From Paludibacter sp. (GTDB taxonomy: Bacteria > Bacteroidota > Bacteroidia > Bacteroidales > Paludibacteraceae): a DNA stretch of 64,000 nt. Location of the stretch: the NCBI GenBank assembly GCA_031292575.1, contig JARLGX010000008.1, positions 1 to 64,000 of the forward strand, given 5' to 3'. Both the position numbers and the translations under genes were made by a program. Positions 1,141 to 51,742 of the stretch are shown here, one piece after another; the stretch's first letter is position 1, and the number at the start of each line of letters is the position of its first letter. The notes beneath the pieces are model-generated. The model was not told the DNA's origin. It ran no database searches and saw only the letters and a list, made by a program, of their open reading frames with translations.

Positions 1141-3582
1141 TTAGAATTTCACTGTAACAGAAGCCAGAAAGTTGGTTCCTGCCTGAGGAAAATAACCGAA
1201 TTCATTATATCGCTGCAAATCCGATGCTGAGTTGGCCTGATAATAAGAATATGTCCAGGCATTGCTGATATATTGTTCGTTGAAAAGATTATTGACCAAA
1301 ACTGTAAGACCAACTCCACGAAGTCCTTTCACAGGCAGGTTATAAGTCAATCGCAGGTTGTTTATAAAATATGCACTTAACGAACGGTCATTGCTCCCTG
1401 TATTGTCAATGTATTGTTTGCCTACATATTGCGATTGAAATCCAGCCTCAAAATTACCTTTTGTAAATGTTATCATACTGTTTGCCAACAATTCAGGCGA
1501 AAAAGCTATCGGCGTATTACCGAGGGAATTCGTTTGTTGGCTCGTCCAATTGCCATTAACATCATAAACATCAACAAATTCTTTAAAATTGGTAATTTGA
1601 TTCCGGCTAACAGTGACAGACGCATCCCACCGCAACCAATCCACAGGTTTCACACTTCCCATTAATTCAATACCCGAACGATAGCTTGTAGGAATATTTG
1701 CAGTTAACATCTCACCCATATCATCAATTTTTCCGGTTAAAATCAATTGATTGCGATAATACATAAAATAGCCATTCACACCCAACGAATATATTGCATT
1801 ATGATATTTATATCCCATTTCAGTATCGTATAAAGTTTCGTTGGTTGGTGCAGTATCAGGGGTGCCATCGGTGTAGTTAGTACGTGTTGGTTCACGGTTA
1901 GCAATAGCCATCGAAGCATACAAATCGTTTCTGTCATTTGGACGATAATAGACTCCCGCTTTTGGATTAAAAAAGTTGAAATGTTTATTTATATCCAAAA
2001 TTTGCATAGCTCCAATGGCATCATTCCACTGATCGTTTTGACCACTCAGCGTATAATCAACCTTCCGGTATTGCAAATCCACATTCACATTTAATTTTGG
2101 TGTCAATGCATAATTTGCTTTCAAATAAATATTTGCATCGAATTTAGCCACCTTACTTCGATAATACTCGGTGACCGGAAGTATATTTCCAATGTAATTT
2201 TTCACCCAAACCACGTCACCAAAATGATCACCCCAATAATAATTGGCCGCTCCACCTACTTGTGCTGTCAGTTTATCTTTCAGATAATTAAGCGAAAAAA
2301 CTCCTCCTGTAAAATCATTGCTCATCTTTTTCTGAGTCACCAAATCTGAATTGGTAGTGGTTAATCCATTAACAGTAAAAGGCGTTAATGAATACTTTAC
2401 TAAGGATTGATCCTGTTGATATTCTTCGTAATAGCCATCACCTCGCGTATAATGTAAGCCTGCATTCAAACTCAATTCATTCGAAAATGTATGAACACCC
2501 AGCAATTGATAATTTGTTTGGATGTAATTATCTGTCTGGTTTTGATAATAAAGAGGTTTTCCATTAGCATCAACACCCATATAACCGCAAGGATTATAAG
2601 TTCTATGCGTGGCTAAGGAATCTTTGGGAACACCATCCCAGGCATGATAGGTTTTTTCGGTTCCGCCAAAAGTCAGAAATTTCAATGTTGTTTTTTCACC
2701 ATAATAACCTGCTTGCACATAATATGATTTCATATCCACCGAACCCCGATCGATATAACCGGACGAATTTACAGAAGACAATCGCGTATCAATAGCCCAA
2801 TGTCCGTTTATCAATCCCGAACTGGCTTTTACAGTAGCTTTTAGCGTATTAAACGAACCTACCGTGACACTGCTTTCGCCCGAAGCTTTTTGGGCATAAT
2901 TTTCGGTTTGCATATTTATGTTCGCCCCGAATGCACCGGCTCCATTCGTTGAAGTTCCCACACCACGCTGTATTTGAATGCTTTGAAGCGAAGATGCAAA
3001 ATCAGGAATATCTACCCAATAAGCACCTTGTTCGTCGGGATCGTTATAAGGAATACCATTAATCGTTATATTAATACGAGTGGCGTCCGTACCTCTAATG
3101 CGAAAACCTGTATAGCCAATTCCTGTTCCGGCATCTGACGAGGCTACAAACGACGGTGTCATGGACAACAAATACGGAATATCTTGTCCCAAATTGGTCT
3201 TGTTTAACGCTTCCTTGTCGATATTGGTATAAGCTACCGGCGATTTATCAGTTGCTCGAAGTGATGAAACGGTAATCTCATCAATTGAGTAAGATTTTGG
3301 ATTTAAGGTAATAGTCAGATTTTGATCTGTGTTTATCTGACTAACCCGCGTTTCAAATCCGACATAACTGACTTCAAGCGAATACTGATTATTCTTCAAT
3401 CCGTCAAAACTAAAAGATCCATCTTTCGATGTTGATTGCACAAGTGAACTGTTCTGAATAACCACAGTTGCACCAACTAAAACTTTCCCGTTCTCGTCCA
3501 ACACTTTCCCTTTAATAGTGTGTTGAGCAAAAGCAGTTAACGCAAAAAAAAGCACGAATGCTGTAATAAAAATTTGTCTCAT
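1141..3582 (-). CDS. TonB-dependent outer-membrane receptor, probably for thiamin or a thiamin precursor
   Basis: This 813-residue receptor has a signal peptide ending in TAFAQ at about residue 20. A carboxypeptidase-regulatory-like domain follows (about 20-110; GKVLDENGKVLVGATV). Then come a plug domain (about 115-230; FRIRGTDATRINITINGIP) and a 22-stranded-type beta-barrel ending in a C-terminal phenylalanine (VTVKF), as outer-membrane proteins do. The leader carries a TPP riboswitch, so expression should fall when thiamin pyrophosphate is plentiful. Thi-box-controlled TonB receptors (OMR1/OMthi type) are established in Bacteroidetes. No partner inner-membrane transporter is adjacent. The substrate assignment rests on the riboswitch, not on the protein sequence. 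Confidence 0.85.
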   Translation of the reverse strand: MRQIFITAFVLFFALTAFAQHTIKGKVLDENGKVLVGATVVIQNSSLVQSTSKDGSFSFDGLKNNQYSLEVSYVGFETRVSQINTDQNLTITLNPKSYSIDEITVSSLRATDKSPVAYTNIDKEALNKTNLGQDIPYLLSMTPSFVASSDAGTGIGYTGFRIRGTDATRINITINGIPYNDPDEQGAYWVDIPDFASSLQSIQIQRGVGTSTNGAGAFGANINMQTENYAQKASGESSVTVGSFNTLKATVKASSGLINGHWAIDTRLSSVNSSGYIDRGSVDMKSYYVQAGYYGEKTTLKFLTFGGTEKTYHAWDGVPKDSLATHRTYNPCGYMGVDANGKPLYYQNQTDNYIQTNYQLLGVHTFSNELSLNAGLHYTRGDGYYEEYQQDQSLVKYSLTPFTVNGLTTTNSDLVTQKKMSNDFTGGVFSLNYLKDKLTAQVGGAANYYWGDHFGDVVWVKNYIGNILPVTEYYRSKVAKFDANIYLKANYALTPKLNVNVDLQYRKVDYTLSGQNDQWNDAIGAMQILDINKHFNFFNPKAGVYYRPNDRNDLYASMAIANREPTRTNYTDGTPDTAPTNETLYDTEMGYKYHNAIYSLGVNGYFMYYRNQLILTGKIDDMGEMLTANIPTSYRSGIELMGSVKPVDWLRWDASVTVSRNQITNFKEFVDVYDVNGNWTSQQTNSLGNTPIAFSPELLANSMITFTKGNFEAGFQSQYVGKQYIDNTGSNDRSLSAYFINNLRLTYNLPVKGLRGVGLTVLVNNLFNEQYISNAWTYSYYQANSASDLQRYNEFGYFPQAGTNFLASVTVKF

Positions 3583-3649
3583 AGCAAATTAATTTGTTAA
3601 TAAATTTGATTTTGAGAGCCTAATAAAAGAAACGGATGAATTAGTCTTA

Positions 3650-3718
3650 TTCCCTTCGCGGAATTACCCGTGCAGGTTCAAAGGGTATGATCTCAGCCCG
3701 AAATATTAAGGCACCCCA
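3650..3718 (-). promoter_or_regulatory. TPP (thi-box) riboswitch
   Basis: On the minus strand the leader reads GGGGTGCC, then GGGCTGAGAT, then ACCCTTTGAACCTG, then GGGTAATTCCGCGAAGGGA. These are the conserved blocks of the thiamin pyrophosphate aptamer (CTGAGA, the TTGAACCTG strand, and the closing GCGAAGGGA). The element lies about 70 nt upstream of the TonB receptor start. No strong separate terminator hairpin is obvious between it and the ATG, so control at translation initiation is plausible. Confidence 0.93.
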
Positions 3719-3826
3719 TTGTTGTGTGAATCATTAAACAGTTGAAAGTCTCAATTGTTCAAGAATTCGTATGTTTAAAAAGAAAGAAAAACAGCCCTGG
3801 AAGCGAGCCGAATTCCTTTCGGGGGA

Positions 3827-3834
3827 CAAAGGTA
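3827..3834 (-). promoter_or_regulatory. candidate promoter -7 element for the TPP-regulated receptor
   Basis: The minus strand reads TACCTTTG, matching the Bacteroidetes -7 consensus TAnnTTTG. It lies about 110 nt upstream of the aptamer and would give a leader of about 240 nt. No good -33 TTTG is visible. Confidence 0.4.
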
Positions 3835-3935
3835 ATAAAATATTTGAATGTGACGATTTGAGAATAAGAAAATGGAATTTTTCAAAAAGCAAAAAAATAC
3901 TCAGTTGACTGATAAATGTAAACTGATAATTGAAA

Positions 3936-5474
3936 CTACCCTGCCCAACCTTCTCTATCAAGATTACGATAATTGATTGCTTCCGCAATATGATTTGAAA
4001 GTATAGGCTCTGACTCTTCCAAATCGGCGATAGTGCGTGCTACTTTAATGATTCTATCGTAAGCTCTGGCTGATAAATTAAGGCGTTGCATGGCATTTTT
4101 TAGCAATTCAGAACTTGCTTTATCTATCTGTGCGTAGGTGCGCATTTGTTTCGATGACATTTGAGCATTGCAATACACACCATCAATATTTTTAAATCGT
4201 TGTTCCTGAACCTGACGGGCTTTCATGACACGATCACGAACTGTTTCGCTACTCTCTGAATCTTTCATTTCCGAAAGTTTTTCGAAAGGAACCGGCACAA
4301 TTTCAATATGAATATCAATCCTATCAAGCAATGGTCCGGAAATTCTACTTAAATATTTTTGAACTATCCCGGGGCCACACACGCATTCGCGATCGGGATG
4401 ATTGTAATAACCACACGGACATGGATTCATTGAGGCCACCAACATAAAACTTGCCGGATATTCAATGGCAAATTTAGCTCGCGAGATACATATTTTTCTA
4501 TCTTCGAGTGGTTGACGCATAACCTCCAACACAGTTCGTTTAAATTCAGGTAATTCATCAAGAAAAAGTACTCCGTTGTGAGCTAACGAAATTTCACCCG
4601 GTTGAGGAAAAGTGCCACCACCCACAAGTGCCACATCGGAAATTGTGTGATGTGGGCTGCGGAATGGTCGTTGTGAAATAAGCGAAGTATTGCTGTCAAT
4701 ATTACCAACTACCGAATGAATTTTGGTTGTTTCCAATGCTTCATGCAAAGTCAGCGGTGGTAAAATAGTTGGAATTCGCTTGGCCAGCATTGATTTTCCT
4801 GCCCCGGGAGGTCCAACCATGATAATATTGTGTCCACCAGCAGCGGCAACTTCCAAAGCTCGTTTCACACTCTCCTGCCCTTTCACATCGGCAAAATCAA
4901 TTTCAGACAAATTCAGGTTAGTGAAAAATTCTTCGCGCGTATTAACCACTGTGGGTTCAATGGCCAATTTTCCATTAAAGAAATCAATAACTTCAGTGAT
5001 ATTTTCAACCCCGTAAACATCCAAATTATTCACAACAGCAGCTTCACGGGCATTTTGTTTTGGAAGAATAAAGCCTTTAAACCCTTCTTCGCGAGCTTTT
5101 ATGGCAATTGGCAAAACTCCTTTAATCGGTTGTAGTCCACCATCAAGCGACAGTTCTCCCATGATAACAAATTTTTCTAATTCTTCAGATTGAATCGTAT
5201 CGGCACCTGCCAAAATACCTATTGCCAAAGGCAAATCGTAAGCTGAACCCTCTTTGCGGATGTCAGCGGGAGCCATATTTATCACAATTTGCTTACGAGG
5301 CAATTTATATCCGGTATAATCCAACGCCGAAGCAATTCGCTCGTGGCTTTCTTTCACAGCATTATCGGGCAATCCAACATGTAGAAAACGAATTCCCTGA
5401 CTGACATTAACTTCAATAGTAACTATCGTGGCGTTTATTCCCTGAACCGCCGCACCAAAGGTTTTTACAAGCAT
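3936..5474 (-). CDS. comM: YifB/ComM family Mg-chelatase-like AAA+ ATPase
   Basis: This 512-residue protein has the usual family length. An N-terminal S5-fold/Lon-protease-like domain spans about 1-170 (VGLPDNAVKESHERI). The AAA+ Mg-chelatase core follows, with Walker A GPPGAGKS at 221-228 and Walker B VLFLDELPEF. A C-terminal Mg-chelatase-like region contains Cys residues around NPCPCGYYNHPDRECVCGP. In proteobacteria ComM is a branch-migration helicase that promotes integration of transforming DNA. The Bacteroidetes orthologues are generally annotated by homology only. It reads toward the riboswitch-controlled receptor and is separated from it by about 215 bp of noncoding DNA. Confidence 0.9.
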   Translation of the reverse strand: MLVKTFGAAVQGINATIVTIEVNVSQGIRFLHVGLPDNAVKESHERIASALDYTGYKLPRKQIVINMAPADIRKEGSAYDLPLAIGILAGADTIQSEELEKFVIMGELSLDGGLQPIKGVLPIAIKAREEGFKGFILPKQNAREAAVVNNLDVYGVENITEVIDFFNGKLAIEPTVVNTREEFFTNLNLSEIDFADVKGQESVKRALEVAAAGGHNIIMVGPPGAGKSMLAKRIPTILPPLTLHEALETTKIHSVVGNIDSNTSLISQRPFRSPHHTISDVALVGGGTFPQPGEISLAHNGVLFLDELPEFKRTVLEVMRQPLEDRKICISRAKFAIEYPASFMLVASMNPCPCGYYNHPDRECVCGPGIVQKYLSRISGPLLDRIDIHIEIVPVPFEKLSEMKDSESSETVRDRVMKARQVQEQRFKNIDGVYCNAQMSSKQMRTYAQIDKASSELLKNAMQRLNLSARAYDRIIKVARTIADLEESEPILSNHIAEAINYRNLDREGWAG

Positions 5475-44870: not shown

Positions 44871-46091
44871 ATGAGGAAAAAAAATACAAAAAAAAATATT
44901 GATTTTGATTATTGGAATTTAATAAAATCTAGTGATAGACCTTTAGAAATTGGAATTATTGATGCAGACCTTCTTGACCAAGGCACCCGTCATCCAAATC
45001 TTGCTTTATTGAAAATATCTGGGTATTGCAAGAAGTTTAAACATAATATAAAATTAATAACTGATTATTCTGAAATTATCGAGGAGTGCCAACAAAACAA
45101 ATACGACATATTGTTAATGTCAAAGGTTTTTAAGTTTACACAAATTCCATCTGAAATTCTTTCTAAGATTGAGAATAATGAGATTGTTATTGGTGGAACT
45201 GGTTTTTTTGACATGGACAGCCCAGAACTTCCTTATGAAATTGAGCATGAAATGCCTGATTATGATTTATATACTGATTACATTACTAAACAAACAGATA
45301 ATTTCACCAAGGATGTAGTCAAGTATGATGATTATATAAATTTTTCAATTGGTTTTACAACAAGGGGTTGCTTTAGAAAATGTAGTTTTTGCGTTAACAG
45401 AAAATACGATAGAGTTTATAAGCATTCACCAATTTCGGAATTTATAGACCCGAAAAGAAAAGGTATTTATTTATGGGATGATAATTTTATGGCATCTTCT
45501 GATTTTCACAATATACTTGATGAATTAATATCAACTGGAAAACCCTTTCAATTTAGGCAGGGATTAGATATCCGTTTAATGACAGATAAAAAAGCGGAAA
45601 GACTTGCAAATGTAAAATATAAAGGTGATTTCATATTTGCATTTGACCATATTGAAGATGCTAATAAGATTAGTGAAAAATTAAAAATTTGGAGAAAATA
45701 CTCTAAAAAATCTACTAAATTATATGTTCTAACTGGATATGAGAGTCAAGATGAAATAGATATTGAGAATACTTTTAAACGCATTAAGATAATTATGGAA
45801 CATGGATGTTTGCCTTACATAATGAGATATGAAGATTATACAAAATCGAGATTCAGGTCATTGTATATTCAATTAGCTAGGTGGTGTAATCAACCCAATT
45901 TCCTAAAAAAGAAAAGCTTTAGGCAGTATTGTATCGCAAATGAAGATTATCATCAATCAAATACAAAAGTTATAAAAGAATATTGTTCTAGCTACAAAGC
46001 AATGATAGATTTCGAAATGGAATTTCCAGAAATCTCTAAAAAATATTACGATTTAAGATTTGAAGAAATTAATCAGTATAAAAACAAATAA
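44871..46091 (+). CDS. radical SAM protein with N-terminal B12-binding-like domain
   Basis: The protein has 406 residues. Residues about 25-130 resemble a Rossmann/cobalamin-binding-like domain (IGIIDADLLDQGTRHPNLALL). The radical SAM core follows, with the 4Fe-4S ligands Cys167, Cys171 and Cys174 in RGCFRKCSFC. LWDDNFMASSDF and FRQGLDIRLM are typical barrel strands. It has no TRAM or second cluster-binding region, so it is not MiaB/RimO. The enzyme would cleave SAM reductively; the substrate is unknown. It is the first gene of a tight six-gene operon (12 bp to the next). A nucleic-acid substrate is suggested only by the company it keeps. Confidence 0.82.
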   Translation: MRKKNTKKNIDFDYWNLIKSSDRPLEIGIIDADLLDQGTRHPNLALLKISGYCKKFKHNIKLITDYSEIIEECQQNKYDILLMSKVFKFTQIPSEILSKIENNEIVIGGTGFFDMDSPELPYEIEHEMPDYDLYTDYITKQTDNFTKDVVKYDDYINFSIGFTTRGCFRKCSFCVNRKYDRVYKHSPISEFIDPKRKGIYLWDDNFMASSDFHNILDELISTGKPFQFRQGLDIRLMTDKKAERLANVKYKGDFIFAFDHIEDANKISEKLKIWRKYSKKSTKLYVLTGYESQDEIDIENTFKRIKIIMEHGCLPYIMRYEDYTKSRFRSLYIQLARWCNQPNFLKKKSFRQYCIANEDYHQSNTKVIKEYCSSYKAMIDFEMEFPEISKKYYDLRFEEINQYKNK

Positions 46092-46103
46092 TCTGAATCC
46101 AAA

Positions 46104-47114
46104 ATGAAACCAAAGTACATTGAATTAGACATCGAAGATGTTCATCTTGATTTAGGCAACCCTAGAATCAAACAATATCTTGAAATTTACTCAGGTGAAA
46201 TAACAAGTGAAGCGATTGCCCTAGCTCTTACAAATCCGGGAAATGGCGATTCATCGACCTCTTATAATACCTTAAAAGAATCTATTAAAGTCAGTGGTGG
46301 GATTATACATCCAATTATTGTAAACAAAGAAAAAGATGGGAAATTAATTGTAATTGAGGGTAATACGAGACTTCAAATCTACAAAGAATTTCTTTTATCA
46401 AACCCTTCAGGTCCTTGGGATAAAATTAGTTCAATTGTATATGATAATTTGACTGATTCTGAAAAACACTCTATAAGATTACAATCACATTTAGTTGGAC
46501 CTCGAGAATGGGATCCATATTCAAAAGCAAAATATTTACACCAACTTAGTGAAATTGAACATTTACCAATGCCTACAATAATTTCAATGTGTGGAGGTAA
46601 TAGTTCGGAAATAAATAAGCTAATAAGTGCATATCGGGACATGCAAGTGTATTATTCAAAAGCAGTTACTGAAAAAGGGGATGATTTTGACATTCGGGAA
46701 TTTTCAAAATTTATTGAATTACAACGTTCTACAATTACATTTGCTTTAACTTCCAAAGGTTTTTCTAAAGAAGATTTTGCAAAATGGGTTGTAAATGATA
46801 ATGTTGATACAGCACAAAATGTTAGACAATTACCAGCTGTTCTAAAAGATCAAGAAGCTTTAAAAGTTTTTCTTAAAAAGAATATATCTGAAGCGGTAAA
46901 GAAAATTGCTGTGACAGAAAATTCACATAATGAATTAAATAATATAGCCTATGATATTTTAGGTGCAAAATTTCTAGAATCACTTAACAGATTAGAATAT
47001 CAAGAAGTGAAAAAATTAAGTAATGATCCAAGTTATGATAAAAAGAAAACCATGCTTCTGTCTATCTATGAAGTTTTACAAGATATAATGAAGGATATTC
47101 AACAAGAAGATTAG
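46104..47114 (+). CDS. ParB/sulfiredoxin-fold protein, copy 1
   Basis: The protein has 336 residues. The N-terminal ParB-like domain reads LDLGNPRIKQYL, GGIIHPIIV and KLIVIEGNTRLQIY; Arg89 in EGNTRL is the nucleotide-phosphate-binding position in ParB folds. About 47 residues later comes GPREWDPY (Trp136), a second block shared with the paralogue at 49011. A helical middle follows (MPTIISMCGGNSSEINKLI, possible helix-turn-helix) and a charged C-terminus. Chromosome partitioning is unlikely; ParB-like proteins also occur in phage and DNA-modification modules (for example DpdB). It is cotranscribed with the radical SAM and nuclease genes. Confidence 0.78.
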   Translation: MKPKYIELDIEDVHLDLGNPRIKQYLEIYSGEITSEAIALALTNPGNGDSSTSYNTLKESIKVSGGIIHPIIVNKEKDGKLIVIEGNTRLQIYKEFLLSNPSGPWDKISSIVYDNLTDSEKHSIRLQSHLVGPREWDPYSKAKYLHQLSEIEHLPMPTIISMCGGNSSEINKLISAYRDMQVYYSKAVTEKGDDFDIREFSKFIELQRSTITFALTSKGFSKEDFAKWVVNDNVDTAQNVRQLPAVLKDQEALKVFLKKNISEAVKKIAVTENSHNELNNIAYDILGAKFLESLNRLEYQEVKKLSNDPSYDKKKTMLLSIYEVLQDIMKDIQQED

Positions 47115-47118
47115 TGAT

Positions 47119-47532
47119 ATGGCTGAATCAATTGCCCATATAATTTACGTGAGAAAAATTGCAGAATATACTTCTGCGATTATACCTGTTGAGTTAATTC
47201 CATATTTATTGATTGATTTACCTGAAAGTTGTAGAAAGCCAGACAGAACTATTGGCAATTTTATTCCTGACTTATACTATAAAGACCTTAACTTCTTGAT
47301 TATTGGTGAAGCTAAAACAGAAAATGATATTGATCGAAATCATAGTAGAAATCAATACAAATCATACATTGAAGAAGCATCGTTATTTCACGGTGAAAAG
47401 CATATTCTCATATGCACTTCACTATATTCATACGCAAGAATTAAGAACTTAATTAGAAAATTAAAGTCAGAACTGAATACAACTGCAAAATTTCATTTAT
47501 TAAACGACATAGGGGATATAAGTATCATATGA
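47119..47532 (+). CDS. small PD-(D/E)XK nuclease-like protein
   Basis: The protein has 137 residues. The motif FIPDLYY, with Asp51, is followed 13 residues later by GEAK (Glu64, Lys66), the PD...(D/E)XK arrangement, with SRNQYKSYI as the supporting helix. It resembles VRR-NUC-type Holliday-junction-like endonucleases often found beside SNF2 helicases in phages. Its stop overlaps the start of the helicase gene by 4 bp, so the two are translationally coupled and likely act together. Nuclease activity is inferred from motif only. Confidence 0.72.
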   Translation: MAESIAHIIYVRKIAEYTSAIIPVELIPYLLIDLPESCRKPDRTIGNFIPDLYYKDLNFLIIGEAKTENDIDRNHSRNQYKSYIEEASLFHGEKHILICTSLYSYARIKNLIRKLKSELNTTAKFHLLNDIGDISII

Positions 47533-48998
47533 GAAAGATTGTAAATAAACCTGGACAGAATCTAACAGCAAAGTTAGAAGCATTTCCTTATCAATATGAA
47601 GCATTTGATGCAATAAAAGATAAGTCATTTGCAGCAATCTTTCATGAACAAGGACTTGGGAAAACTAAAATTGCAATTGACATTCTTTTATATTGGTTGG
47701 AGTACAAAGAAATTGATACTGTTCTTATTGTCACAAAAAAACAATTAGTAGAAAACTGGCGTGGTGAATTTGAAATACATACTAATATTTTACCTAGAAT
47801 ACTTACAAATAAACGTGGTGAGAATTATTACGTATTTAACAGCAATACTCGAATTGTTATTACAAACTTTGAAACAATTTCAGGCGAAAAGGACAGATTT
47901 AAACTTTTTCTTAAAACAAGAAATGTTGCTATTATAATCGATGAATCAACTAAGCTAAAGAATCCAGAATCTAAACTAACTCAAGACTTTTTTGAAATTT
48001 CTAATTTGTTTAAAATTCGTATAATAATGACAGGGACACCTGTTGCAAATAGACCTTATGATATATGGGCTCAAATTTTCTTTCTTGATTTTGGCAAAAG
48101 TTTAGGGACAAATTTTGCTGAGTTTAAATCAACAAATGATCTCTCAAACGACTTGGCAACAAATGAAACAAAAAGAAATTTATTTGAGACATCTGTATCC
48201 AAAATCTTTGATAAAATCAAAGATTTTACGGTTAGAGAAACAAAAAATAGCGGAATAATAACTCTTCCAAATAAAGTGTATCATGATATTTATGTAGACT
48301 TCGAAGATACACAATCTTTAATGTATAATAAAGTGCGAACTGAAATGCAGATTTTATTGCAACACGATGAAAAAACATTACTTGACGAATCTACAGATTC
48401 AATTAAAAGATTATTAAGATTAGTACAAATTACTTCAAATCCTCGGTTGTTAGATGATTTATACTGTTCTTTCTCAGGGAAAGAGGCAAAACTCGATGTT
48501 TTAATCAATGAAATTATAAGTAGAGATGAGAAAATTATAGTTTGGTCAATATTCACAGGTAATATAGATCATTTCTGTAAAAAATATAAGAACCTCAATG
48601 CAGTTAAAATAACGGGTAAAATGAATATAGAAGATCGAACAAATTCAGTTCGGGCATTCAAAACCGGTGATGCAAAAGTTTTATTTGCAACTCCACAATC
48701 AGCAAAGGAAGGGCTAACACTTACAATTGCTAATAATGTAATTTTCTATGATCGAGGTTTTAATCTTGACGATTATTTACAAGCTCAGGATAGAATACAT
48801 CGCATTTCACAAACTAAAATCTGTCATATATATAACATAATGGTTAAAAATAGCATTGACATTTGGATTGATCAATTACTAAAAGCCAAACAGAATGCAG
48901 CATTTTTAGCTCAAGGTGATTATAAATTAAAAAAGTATACAGAAGTTGCCGATTATAGTTTTGGTGAACTTGTTAAAGATATTTTAAACGAAAATTAG
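47529..48998 (+). CDS. SNF2-type superfamily 2 helicase/translocase
   Basis: The protein has 489 residues, short for SNF2, consisting of the two RecA-like domains with little else. Motif I is QGLGKTK (Lys45), motif II IIIDEST (138-141 DEST), motif III MTGTPVANRP, motif V FATPQSAKEGLTLT and motif VI QAQDRIHRISQ. It would translocate on double-stranded DNA using ATP. It is coupled to the upstream nuclease by a 4-bp overlap and 12 bp from the second ParB-like gene. Minimal SNF2 proteins of this size with an adjacent small nuclease are typical of phage replication/recombination blocks and some restriction or defence loci. Confidence 0.9.
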   Translation: MRKIVNKPGQNLTAKLEAFPYQYEAFDAIKDKSFAAIFHEQGLGKTKIAIDILLYWLEYKEIDTVLIVTKKQLVENWRGEFEIHTNILPRILTNKRGENYYVFNSNTRIVITNFETISGEKDRFKLFLKTRNVAIIIDESTKLKNPESKLTQDFFEISNLFKIRIIMTGTPVANRPYDIWAQIFFLDFGKSLGTNFAEFKSTNDLSNDLATNETKRNLFETSVSKIFDKIKDFTVRETKNSGIITLPNKVYHDIYVDFEDTQSLMYNKVRTEMQILLQHDEKTLLDESTDSIKRLLRLVQITSNPRLLDDLYCSFSGKEAKLDVLINEIISRDEKIIVWSIFTGNIDHFCKKYKNLNAVKITGKMNIEDRTNSVRAFKTGDAKVLFATPQSAKEGLTLTIANNVIFYDRGFNLDDYLQAQDRIHRISQTKICHIYNIMVKNSIDIWIDQLLKAKQNAAFLAQGDYKLKKYTEVADYSFGELVKDILNEN

Positions 48999-49010
48999 TA
49001 AAAATACAGC

Positions 49011-49979
49011 ATGAAGACATTAACAATTGGCAAAAAGGATTTTGAAGTTAAGGAAGGGGAATTTAATCAAGCATCTTTAATGTTTTATGAAGATAATCCT
49101 AGAGTTTATAGTGCTTTAAGAGTATCATATCAGACAAATCCTGACCAGAAAAGTATTGAAGATTTAATGGTCACAATGGAGCATGTAAAACAACTAAAGC
49201 TATCTATTGAAAGTAATGGAGGTCTTATCGACCCATTAATTGTGAGAGATGGTGACTTTGTAGTTCTTGAAGGAAATAGTCGATTAGCTGCATATCGACT
49301 GTTGTGCCGAAAAGACCCAATTACATGGGGAAAAGTCAAATGTATAATTTTACCAAAAGACATTGATGAAACATCTATTTTTACTCTTTTAGGTCAATAT
49401 CATATTATTGGCAGAAAAGATTGGAGTCCTTACGAACAAGCGGGTTATTTGTATAGACGGAAAAAAGAATCGAAAATTCCTGTAGAAACAATGGCTAAAG
49501 AACTTGGGATAAAAAAAGGAGATGCTCAAAAATACCTTGATGTATATACTTTTATGATTGATAATGATGACTTAGAACCATCAAATTGGAGTTATTATGA
49601 TGAATTGCTTAAAAATAGGTCATTAAATAAGGCTAAAGTGTATCTTCCACAATTACAGAGCACTATAGTTGCACAAATTAAAAATAAAGAAATCCAACAG
49701 GCTTCAGATATACGAAAAATTGGGGAAATAGCTAATTGTCCCGATAATAAAGCAAAAAAAGTGCTTGCTGACATTGCGAAAGGTGTATCTGATATTTATA
49801 TGGGTTATGAGATAATTAAAGATACAGGCAAAATAGATTCATTATATAAAAAGGTTCGAGCGTTTAGAGAACTAATTTCAGATTGCGAATTTAATGATTC
49901 GATTGCCGATAGTCCTGATATTAAGTATGAAATTAAAAAAATTACACAAATATTAAAGAAATGCTTTAAAGAAGAATAG
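49011..49979 (+). CDS. ParB/sulfiredoxin-fold protein, copy 2
   Basis: The protein has 322 residues. The ParB-like domain shows DNPRVYSALRVSY, GGLIDPLIV and FVVLEGNSRLAAYR (Arg91). GRKDWSPY (Trp138) follows with exactly the same 47-residue distance from the Arg as in the first copy, proving paralogy. A probable helix-turn-helix follows at VETMAKELGIKKGDAQKYL. Sequence outside these blocks is diverged, so the two are likely non-redundant partners rather than a recent duplication. It lies 12 bp after the SNF2 gene and 2 bp before the last gene of the operon. Confidence 0.8.
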   Translation: MKTLTIGKKDFEVKEGEFNQASLMFYEDNPRVYSALRVSYQTNPDQKSIEDLMVTMEHVKQLKLSIESNGGLIDPLIVRDGDFVVLEGNSRLAAYRLLCRKDPITWGKVKCIILPKDIDETSIFTLLGQYHIIGRKDWSPYEQAGYLYRRKKESKIPVETMAKELGIKKGDAQKYLDVYTFMIDNDDLEPSNWSYYDELLKNRSLNKAKVYLPQLQSTIVAQIKNKEIQQASDIRKIGEIANCPDNKAKKVLADIAKGVSDIYMGYEIIKDTGKIDSLYKKVRAFRELISDCEFNDSIADSPDIKYEIKKITQILKKCFKEE

Positions 49980-49981
49980 TT

Positions 49982-50662
49982 ATGAATTTTAAAATTGAAG
50001 ATTTTTTTGATAGAAGTTATGAGTTGCAAATAAATGAGAATATGTTCTATTATAGTTACAAATTTCCACACAATGAAGTATGTGAGTATTTAGAATATAT
50101 TATTAATACTCCTTACTCTGAATTTGTTGCATATATTCAAAATCATATTCAGTGTAATTCTATTACTTCTAAAGATATTCCACAATTTAGTTCATTTAAT
50201 AATTGTACAATAAATATTTGCAAAAAACTTCTAGCAGTTAATGATCCAGGGTTGCAATTTGTTGAAATTGGTAAATTATTATTAGATGACGTAAATTCAA
50301 GAAATGATGTCGCTTACAGAAAATATGGTGAAAATCATTCAAAAACTGCATTTGAATTAGGTCTGACACAATTTAAGGAAAGTACTTGGTATTTATCGTG
50401 TATTGGTTATACATTTCTCTCATTTGACGAAAAAAGTCAAATAGCAATAATATCTAGATGCTTACTACGAAATAAATTTATTTCTAGAATAATTGGAGAT
50501 TCTTTAATTTCGGAAGTAAATATTGTGAAATATATGCACTGTTTATCAAAAAGTACTATGACCCGCAGGAAACCCAATATTATGTTTCTTATCAATATGT
50601 GTAAAGTTCAATTTGACAATGTTGATTCGAATTTATTGAAGAAAATCTATTGTGAATTTTAG
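49982..50662 (+). CDS. unknown protein, last gene of the six-gene operon
   Basis: The protein has 226 residues, starting 2 bp after the second ParB-like gene. It is soluble, with no signal peptide, membrane segment or motif I can name. It is rich in Asn, Ile, Tyr and Cys, with a helix-rich pattern (YRKYGENHSKTAFELGLTQ; LISRCLLRNKFISRIIG-like region). Its position marks it as a functional part of the operon. The AT-rich codon use matches the other five genes. Confidence 0.65.
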   Translation: MNFKIEDFFDRSYELQINENMFYYSYKFPHNEVCEYLEYIINTPYSEFVAYIQNHIQCNSITSKDIPQFSSFNNCTINICKKLLAVNDPGLQFVEIGKLLLDDVNSRNDVAYRKYGENHSKTAFELGLTQFKESTWYLSCIGYTFLSFDEKSQIAIISRCLLRNKFISRIIGDSLISEVNIVKYMHCLSKSTMTRRKPNIMFLINMCKVQFDNVDSNLLKKIYCEF

Positions 50663-50980: not shown

Positions 50981-51742
50981 ATGAATCGTCTTATTTCAAG
51001 TCTATTATTTATTTTACTTTTAGTGGTCATTTGTCAGTCCTGTAAAATTGACAAGCCAAAAGAGGCCGCTCTTCCTCAGAAGCAATATGTGTATCTGACT
51101 TTTGATGACGGACCTTTGGATGGTAGTCAAGATGTTGATAGTATTATTTTGGCAGAGAAGATAAAAATTAGTGTGTTTCTGGTTGGTTCGGAAGTAGTTG
51201 GCGACAGGGAAATGGATACCTATTACAAGTACTACGAAGATAATCCGTATATCGAGGAGTACAATCATAGTTTTACACATGGCAACGATCAATATAATGT
51301 GTTCTACAGCAATCCGCATAAAGCAACCGAGGATTTCCTGAAGAATCAGAAGTTTCTGAAAATTCAGTTTAAAATCATACGCATGCCGGCTTGCAATACC
51401 TGGCGTGTTAATAACAAGAAACAAGATGATTGTGAAACTAATGCGGTGGCTACTGCCGATAGCCTGGCTGCAAGAGGATTTAAGGTTTTTGGTTGGGATA
51501 TAGAGTGGCAGCATCATGCAGAAGACGGTACTCCGGTACAAAGCGTTGATGAAATTTACCGACAAATTATGCAACAGCTGAATTCGGGTAAAACATTCAC
51601 GAAAAACAATATCGTTATCCTGTTGCACGATGAAATGTTTCAACGACGTTGGGAAGAAAGTGACCTGAAACAATTAATTGACCGCCTGCGAAAAGATAAA
51701 AACATCGTTTTCGAACAAATGAAGTTTTATCCTCAGGATTAA
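50981..51742 (+). CDS. polysaccharide deacetylase family (NodB-like) lipoprotein
   Basis: The protein has 253 residues. The N-terminal signal has lipobox ICQSC (Cys at about 21), followed by Lys/Asp residues, so it is probably membrane-anchored. NodB-fold motifs are LTFDDGP (motif 1, metal-binding Asp), NHSFTHGN (motif 2 His pair), IRMPACN (motif 3), FGWDIEW (motif 4) and ILLHDE (motif 5). It deacetylates GlcNAc or similar sugars in peptidoglycan or glycans. It is a single gene, bounded by repeats. Confidence 0.88.
   Translation: MNRLISSLLFILLLVVICQSCKIDKPKEAALPQKQYVYLTFDDGPLDGSQDVDSIILAEKIKISVFLVGSEVVGDREMDTYYKYYEDNPYIEEYNHSFTHGNDQYNVFYSNPHKATEDFLKNQKFLKIQFKIIRMPACNTWRVNNKKQDDCETNAVATADSLAARGFKVFGWDIEWQHHAEDGTPVQSVDEIYRQIMQQLNSGKTFTKNNIVILLHDEMFQRRWEESDLKQLIDRLRKDKNIVFEQMKFYPQD

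Follow-up and report, generated by a model that had tools for sequence, protein, structure and literature searches.

A radical SAM gene joined to a ParB-nuclease-SNF2-ParB block in Paludibacter: a candidate modification-dependent defence operon

A stretch of 64,000 nucleotides from Paludibacter sp. (assembly GCA_031292575.1, contig JARLGX010000008.1, positions 1 to 64,000; hereafter the window) contains an operon of six co-directional open reading frames (ORFs) on the plus strand (44871-50662), encoding a radical S-adenosylmethionine (SAM) protein, two ParB/Srx-like proteins, a predicted PD-(D/E)XK nuclease, an SNF2-family helicase and a sixth protein, Orf6. We consider it probable that this operon is a modification/restriction-like, self-marking system directed against invaders, with the radical SAM protein as the writer of the mark. 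This reading is based on the conservation of a ParB-nuclease-SNF2-ParB block in 14 loci, each with a radical SAM gene alongside, and on the occurrence of the same kind of radical SAM protein, here called type A, beside DrmA/DrmB, PbeA/PbeC and AIPR proteins and in one locus fused to Orf6. It is also based on the methyltransferase neighbours of type A in phages, on a relative of the operon within a defence island and on a type A tree with five or more changes of setting between phage and defence.

The first gene encodes the type A radical SAM protein (44871-46091, 406 amino acids (aa), phrog_9298 family), the proposed modification enzyme. It is followed by the genes for the ParB/Srx-like protein ParB1 (46104-47114, 336 aa), the predicted nuclease (47119-47532, 137 aa), the SNF2-family helicase/translocase (47529-48998, 489 aa), the second ParB/Srx-like protein ParB2 (49011-49979, 322 aa) and Orf6 (49982-50662, 226 aa), a partner of the type A protein proposed to be a DNA-contacting or specificity subunit. 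The ORF coordinates agree with an earlier sequence-only reading of this stretch, which had described six genes in one direction with gaps of 12, 4, -4, 12 and 2 bp; judged from this spacing, the genes would be co-transcribed. The same reading had called the operon richer in AT than its neighbours, and this holds (29.1% G+C, versus 35.4% for the window and 42.4% and 38.6% for the flanking genes). Promoter-like sites in the operon are not in excess (45 versus 40.7 in shuffles), and a scan of the operon found no terminator-like site on the plus strand.

The ParB-nuclease-SNF2-ParB block was found in 14 distinct loci (the window, L002, L030, L125-L130 and L133-L137), so that ParB1 has homologues in 13 other core loci. 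A radical SAM gene lies alongside in 14/14, and the gene order is kept in 13 of the 14; the rearranged locus, L130, has three ParB-like genes, followed by a small gene whose product bears an EAKT motif and by the SNF2 gene. Searches of plasmids and viral contigs with ParB1 only provided an ascertainment independent of the radical SAM gene. The plasmid search matched eight records, seven of them core-bearing: L125-L130, which are alphaproteobacterial plasmid records (Rhizobium, Mesorhizobium, Roseomonas and Bradyrhizobium), and H64, a near-duplicate of L126 as judged by match positions. The eighth match (Persicobacter, 26% identity) is a distant ParB with no SNF2 or radical SAM gene annotated in 17 kb. 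A plasmid search with SNF2 at E 1e-60 recovered the same seven core-bearing records. Scanning viral contigs with the ParB1 profile gave six loci (L132, which is the contig of L030, and L133-L137), and core and radical SAM are present in 6/6. Altogether, all 13 core-bearing records that ParB1 recovered carry a radical SAM gene (12/12 without H64), of type A in one and of a second type, B, in 12.

The core is rare: within the window's phylum the ParB1 profile matched one genome of 395, and a search with the nuclease found the window's own genome alone among these 395. The ParB1 profile matched none of 344 genomes of a second phylum, where an empty answer shows little. Viral-contig scans with two-sequence alignments of ParB1, ParB2 and the nuclease and with the single radical SAM sequence gave no relative; these patterns are weak, and broader alignments later found some. 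The sequence-only reading had suggested looking for the gene set elsewhere and would have given way if the set occurred only inside intact prophages as replication genes, or if the genes were not conserved together. Neither is the case: the block is kept in 14 loci, among them plasmids, a defence island and viral contigs whose gene calls show no replication genes nearby.

The defence island is that of L002, a contig of a metagenome-assembled genome (MAG) found by a radical SAM scan of bacterial genome contigs. L002 carries the radical SAM, ParB1, nuclease, SNF2 and ParB2 genes in window order, with identities to the window of 75, 84, 64, 84 and 77%. The phylum of L002 has just 13 genomes in the collection, versus 395 drawn from the window's phylum, which puts the two hosts in different phyla and makes horizontal transfer between the lineages likely. 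The gene that comes next in L002 encodes PD-T7-3 (5e-104), and further on are genes for AbiLi-like (2e-72) and AbiLii-like (4e-16) proteins, neighbours which place this copy in a defence island. The same island includes a DUF5131-like (Gp37/Gp68, by eye) gene (16593-17327 of L002) for another protein with a SAM-type cysteine motif. All six genes are present in window order on the viral contig L030 (52, 51, 34, 69, 41 and 40% identity), where Orf6 carries a Peptidase_S24 extension; an apparent reverse transcriptase gene (by eye, 3529-5100) lies upstream of this set.

The radical SAM protein is of type A in the window, L002 and L030 and of type B (532-687 aa) in the other 11 distinct core loci. 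Type B is a distant homologue of type A (hhalign 99.4%, 4e-21, about 300 columns). Its carriers include Rhizobium leguminosarum WSM1325 and Novosphingobium aromaticivorans DSM 12444. A GHKL-type ATPase accompanies type B in 11/11 loci (HATPase_c_3 6e-11 in L125) and a DndB-family DGQHR protein in 7/11 (PF14072 8e-8; PADLOC DpdB 8e-19). The three type A cores group together in the SNF2 tree with strong support (99/99), which fits a single module exchange. Type B is present in 12 plasmid records, namely the seven core-bearing ones and five others. Two of these five (L138, NZ_CP072139.1, 5499-12203; L139, NC_009426.1, 7994-14492) combine the type B radical SAM protein with a DGQHR protein and a GHKL ATPase, and no ParB core is annotated over some 19.6 kb. 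Alongside are PIN-like/ATP-binding genes and a further DGQHR protein of larger size (786 aa in L138), and these loci are possibly another radical SAM defence layout.

The type A protein also adjoins other defence cores. In L016, a genome from the window's genus, its gene comes first in an operon that continues with a 788-aa orphan, DrmA (5e-170) and DrmB (8e-59), and L017 is arranged in the same way up to a cut-off DrmA-like gene. In L005 and L025 type A is accompanied by a NERD-helicase gene and an orphan resembling the 788-aa one, and no DrmA is visible there. On the viral contig L028 a fused radical SAM-Orf6 protein is followed by PbeA (4e-218) and PbeC (1e-101); L112 has separate radical SAM and Orf6 genes, then PbeA (3e-189) and an incomplete PbeC (4e-46), and in L111 the pair is followed by an AIPR protein (7e-36). 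What the sequence-only reading had missed is that core and radical SAM form two recombining modules. Directly before the L028 cluster lies a gene for an LmuB-like ATPase (2e-208, 2650-4437). The orphan beside type A measures 783-794 aa (L016 7912-10278, L017 1595-3946, L005 4643-7027), with a remnant of 207 aa in L025 (11147-11770); the L016 copy has no PADLOC or Pfam match.

Homologues of Orf6 adjoin type A in L030, L111 and L112 and are fused to it in L028, and among the loci found Orf6 was seen with type A only, which ties this sixth gene to the radical SAM protein. The sequence-only reading had listed it as an orphan and had missed this link. The motif KYGENHSK (residues 114-121; 50321-50344, plus strand) has its K, G, E, N, H and K invariant in five homologues. 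A structure predicted from three sequences (predicted local distance difference test (pLDDT) 84.7, predicted template modelling score (pTM) 0.83) consists of helices followed by a two-strand hairpin, a region which could be a winged helix. The model has no significant fold match in the PDB (best E 0.35), and a PDB sequence search with the radical SAM and Orf6 profiles gave no match.

The type A protein belongs to the radical SAM superfamily, as its cysteine motif, its phage protein family and its fold matches agree. The motif CxxxCxxC at Cys167/171/174 (45369-45392, plus strand, located by counting codons from the start of the ORF), which had been pointed out from the sequence, is confirmed and is invariant across an alignment of 59 relatives. 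Cys313 and Cys339 are nearly invariant in the same alignment; beyond these five no conserved cysteine was found in the 59 relatives, the N-terminal part included. The Pfam radical SAM score (0.17) is below the cut-off, yet the protein matches phrog_9298 in PHROGs at 9.5e-54, and the earlier label stands. NCBIfam gave weak matches only (YgiQ 0.0032, LuxQ 0.051). The predicted structure (pLDDT 91.5, pTM 0.88) has MiaB (3e-7), MgmA (6e-7), MtaB, RimO and TokK as nearest PDB folds (E 3e-7 to 5e-4).

Type A is also a phage gene, with phrog_9298 in 15 annotated phage records and 138 viral loci in the viral-contig scan. Phage neighbourhoods were counted in the best 80 of these 138 loci; nine of them, in which gene calling gave no radical SAM ORF, were left out, and thinning of the rest at 85% identity gave 50 loci, a set that includes the defence-type loci L028 and L030. 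In 15/50 loci type A has a DNA methyltransferase no more than one gene away (5.7 expected from random genes of the same loci; 0/2000 permutations reach 15), and in 21/50 no more than two genes away (10.0 expected; 0/2000 permutations). Anywhere in the stretch a DNA methyltransferase is present in 26/50 loci; a SAM synthetase-like gene is present in 9/50. The reference neighbour genes are an N6/N4 methyltransferase with ParB_N, a C5 methyltransferase and a SAM synthetase N-domain.

Across the 69 type A proteins placed in a tree, the setting changes between phage and defence at least five times, even when strong branches only are counted. This tree leaves out unlabelled rows below 330 aa, duplicates and L004, and a protein is labelled phage in it by its collection of origin and some 6 kb of flanking sequence. 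L028, with its Pbe genes, stands close to L029, a solo phage gene, and the sister of the window group is L001, a Bacilli MAG contig reading as prophage (ORFs by eye). Short radical SAM relatives (about 290-306 aa) were seen in prophage-like stretches (L018 10295-11164, L024 1231-2151), near PAPS-reductase-like and methyltransferase-like genes (by eye).

Among the core proteins, the two ParB-like labels of the sequence-only reading hold by PHROGs ParB-like families (ParB1 2.5e-8, ParB2 3.4e-7) and by the conserved motif EGN[TS]RL, but remain below the Pfam ParB cut-offs (E 0.0088 and 0.15). The motif is EGNTRL in ParB1 (residues 85-90; 46356-46373, plus strand), invariant in a three-sequence alignment, and EGNSRL in ParB2 (residues 87-92; 49269-49286, plus strand). 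ParB2 is a distant paralogue of ParB1 (30% identity over 125 aa, about 5e-16). The nuclease has no Pfam, PHROGs, PADLOC or NCBIfam match, and its label comes from motif conservation: D51 and E64-A-K66 are conserved in a putative active-site stretch (47269-47316, plus strand), which we take to be a PD-(D/E)XK site. It is the fastest-changing core gene (64% identity to L002, versus 84% for SNF2). The SNF2 helicase is confirmed, with both the SNF2-related domain (PF00176, 5e-27) and Helicase_C (PF00271, about 4e-18), and it matches PDB 1z63 at 4e-29.

We found no description of this combination in the open-licence literature, though one elsewhere could exist; the accessible parts of PMC12926258, PMC10250203, PMC7641849 and PMC3226654 do not describe it. 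The CxC/PbeABCD systems (an ABC ATPase-DndE core with an HKD-SF2 nuclease-helicase) are similar in that the same radical SAM protein and Orf6 adjoin PbeA and PbeC in L028 and L112. Their modification partners are exchangeable too, with phosphorothioation (PT) genes replaced by cytosine methylases in some systems, according to the portion of PMC10853773 available, in which "radical SAM" refers to DndC. The window operon, however, lacks PbeC, reaches PbeA at just 1.5e-6 via its helicase (PADLOC) and has a different core, ParB-nuclease-SNF2-ParB. DISARM shares the type A gene at the head of a DrmA-DrmB operon in the window's genus, whereas the window operon has no DrmA, DrmB or DNA methyltransferase, and its SNF2 protein shows helicase-level similarity to DrmD; the accessible part of PMC12458937, on DISARM relatives, has no mention of radical SAM. 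Dnd phosphorothioation has in common the logic of modification with restriction and the DndB-family (PF14072) protein of the type B modules, but DndC, DndD and DndE are absent from the window operon. Readings as Zorya or viperin were set aside: SNF2 scores to ZorD models (2e-42, PADLOC) but stays far below the equivalog cut-off (55.4 versus 1500 bits), no ZorA or ZorB match was found, and the radical SAM protein matches no viperin model in NCBIfam or PADLOC. The earlier statement that the operon is no nameable defence or modification system is upheld, since the features that define DISARM, Dpd, PbeABCD, Zorya and viperin are lacking, and we place the operon as a probable separate form of modification-dependent defence.

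We infer that the system serves in defence and that its substrate is DNA. In a first module the radical SAM protein, aided by Orf6, would write a base modification, possibly a C-methylation or methylthiolation as the nearest folds suggest, at sites that may be chosen with the help of Orf6 or the ParB-like proteins. In a second module the SNF2 motor would scan or translocate along DNA, the two ParB/Srx-like proteins would load onto or sense it, and the small nuclease would cleave DNA that lacks the mark. Phages in which the same radical SAM gene adjoins methyltransferases probably mask their own DNA with its help.

Several observations weigh against this reading. Every argument for it is drawn from gene context; the idea of DNA modification with restriction, already raised from the sequence, is supported on that side as a putative role. 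The best five fold matches are modest (TM-score about 0.43-0.47, root-mean-square deviation >10, identity about 10-13%), values which indicate fold kinship and assign no substrate. In four of the 11 type B loci (L128, L130, L135 and L137) the radical SAM module is opposed to the core, so the two are not one operon there; in the other seven it is co-directional. Orf6 is missing from L002 and was not found in the DISARM-type loci. No methyltransferase lies within about 6 kb in 24/50 phage loci, and PADLOC gave no clear defence match for the ten proteins flanking the operon in the window.

Next to the operon on its 3' side, a polysaccharide-deacetylase-like gene (50981-51742) is present in four of 47 other same-genus genomes (81-93% identity). 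An empty-site comparison with these four matched this gene alone and nothing on its other side, and it gave no empty site that would attest insertion of the operon here; without shared flanks, the gene may itself be mobile.

Alternatively, the radical SAM protein could be an effector that upon infection makes a toxic or chain-terminating nucleotide in the manner of viperin, with the ParB/SNF2/nuclease block sensing phage DNA. Radical SAM viperins are known as defence effectors (accessible part of PMC12926258), and the available portion of PMC10853773 discusses relatives of ParB/Srx as effectors that act on nucleotides. We regard this as unlikely, since no viperin model is among the NCBIfam matches and since the gene's place beside DNA methyltransferases in phages is easier to reconcile with a marker than with a toxin against viruses. 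The gene also adjoins DISARM and Pbe cores, which are described with DNA-modifying genes (for CxC/Pbe, the same portion of PMC10853773).

The nearest folds raise the question of whether the enzyme modifies RNA, such as tRNA, or protein, so that the cluster would guard translation or a protein target. MiaB, MgmA, MtaB, RimO and TokK transfer methyl or methylthio groups; MiaB acts on tRNA, RimO on a ribosomal protein and MgmA on methyl-coenzyme M reductase. In the methylthiotransferases MiaB and RimO a second cluster is held by three N-terminal cysteines, and this set is absent here, as no N-terminal cysteine is conserved in the 59 relatives. Type A differs from these enzymes and from the B12-type methylases MgmA and TokK in setting as well, standing in contexts of defence and phage DNA modification; its partners are DNA translocases, with methyltransferases as neighbours. 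An RNA or protein substrate is therefore improbable in our view.

The sequence-only reading had also considered a captured phage replication block, and the phage link is real, as the radical SAM gene alone occurs in phages. Type A is common on viral contigs, its L004 copy lies beside a phage helicase, and SNF2 matches 2319 phage records. All of these SNF2 matches are, however, below 60% identity, at about 27-30% among the matches listed; the nuclease has no match in phage records, and ParB1 has weak ones only (26-28%). With the block on large plasmids and in a defence island, a replication or recombination block is largely refuted and very unlikely. A reduced 7-deazaguanine (Dpd) system is scarcely plausible: the analogy drawn earlier holds loosely, in that the SNF2 protein resembles DpdE (PADLOC 5e-38) and a DpdB-like protein occurs in the plasmid relatives, but the DpdE equivalog score is 21.4 bits versus an NCBIfam cut-off of 500, the radical SAM fold is MiaB/MgmA-like, and no QueE-type, DpdA or other Dpd protein match was found in the six operon proteins, nor DpdA or deazaguanine genes by PADLOC in the ten flanking ones, the rest of the genome lying outside this search. 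A modification chemistry other than that of Dpd is implied.

The modification/restriction reading may extend beyond this operon. We propose, tentatively, a class of defence systems in which radical SAM proteins of two related kinds write an undescribed carbon-centred mark on DNA bases (for example C-methyl or methylthio), serve as exchangeable writers for at least four restriction cores of unrelated kinds and are carried by phages as camouflage. If so, phrog_9298, a common yet unexplained phage gene family, would be accounted for, and there would be an undescribed DNA mark which phages seem to carry as well. A radical SAM route would then join methylation, phosphorothioation and 7-deazaguanine as DNA self-marks for the recognition of self and non-self.

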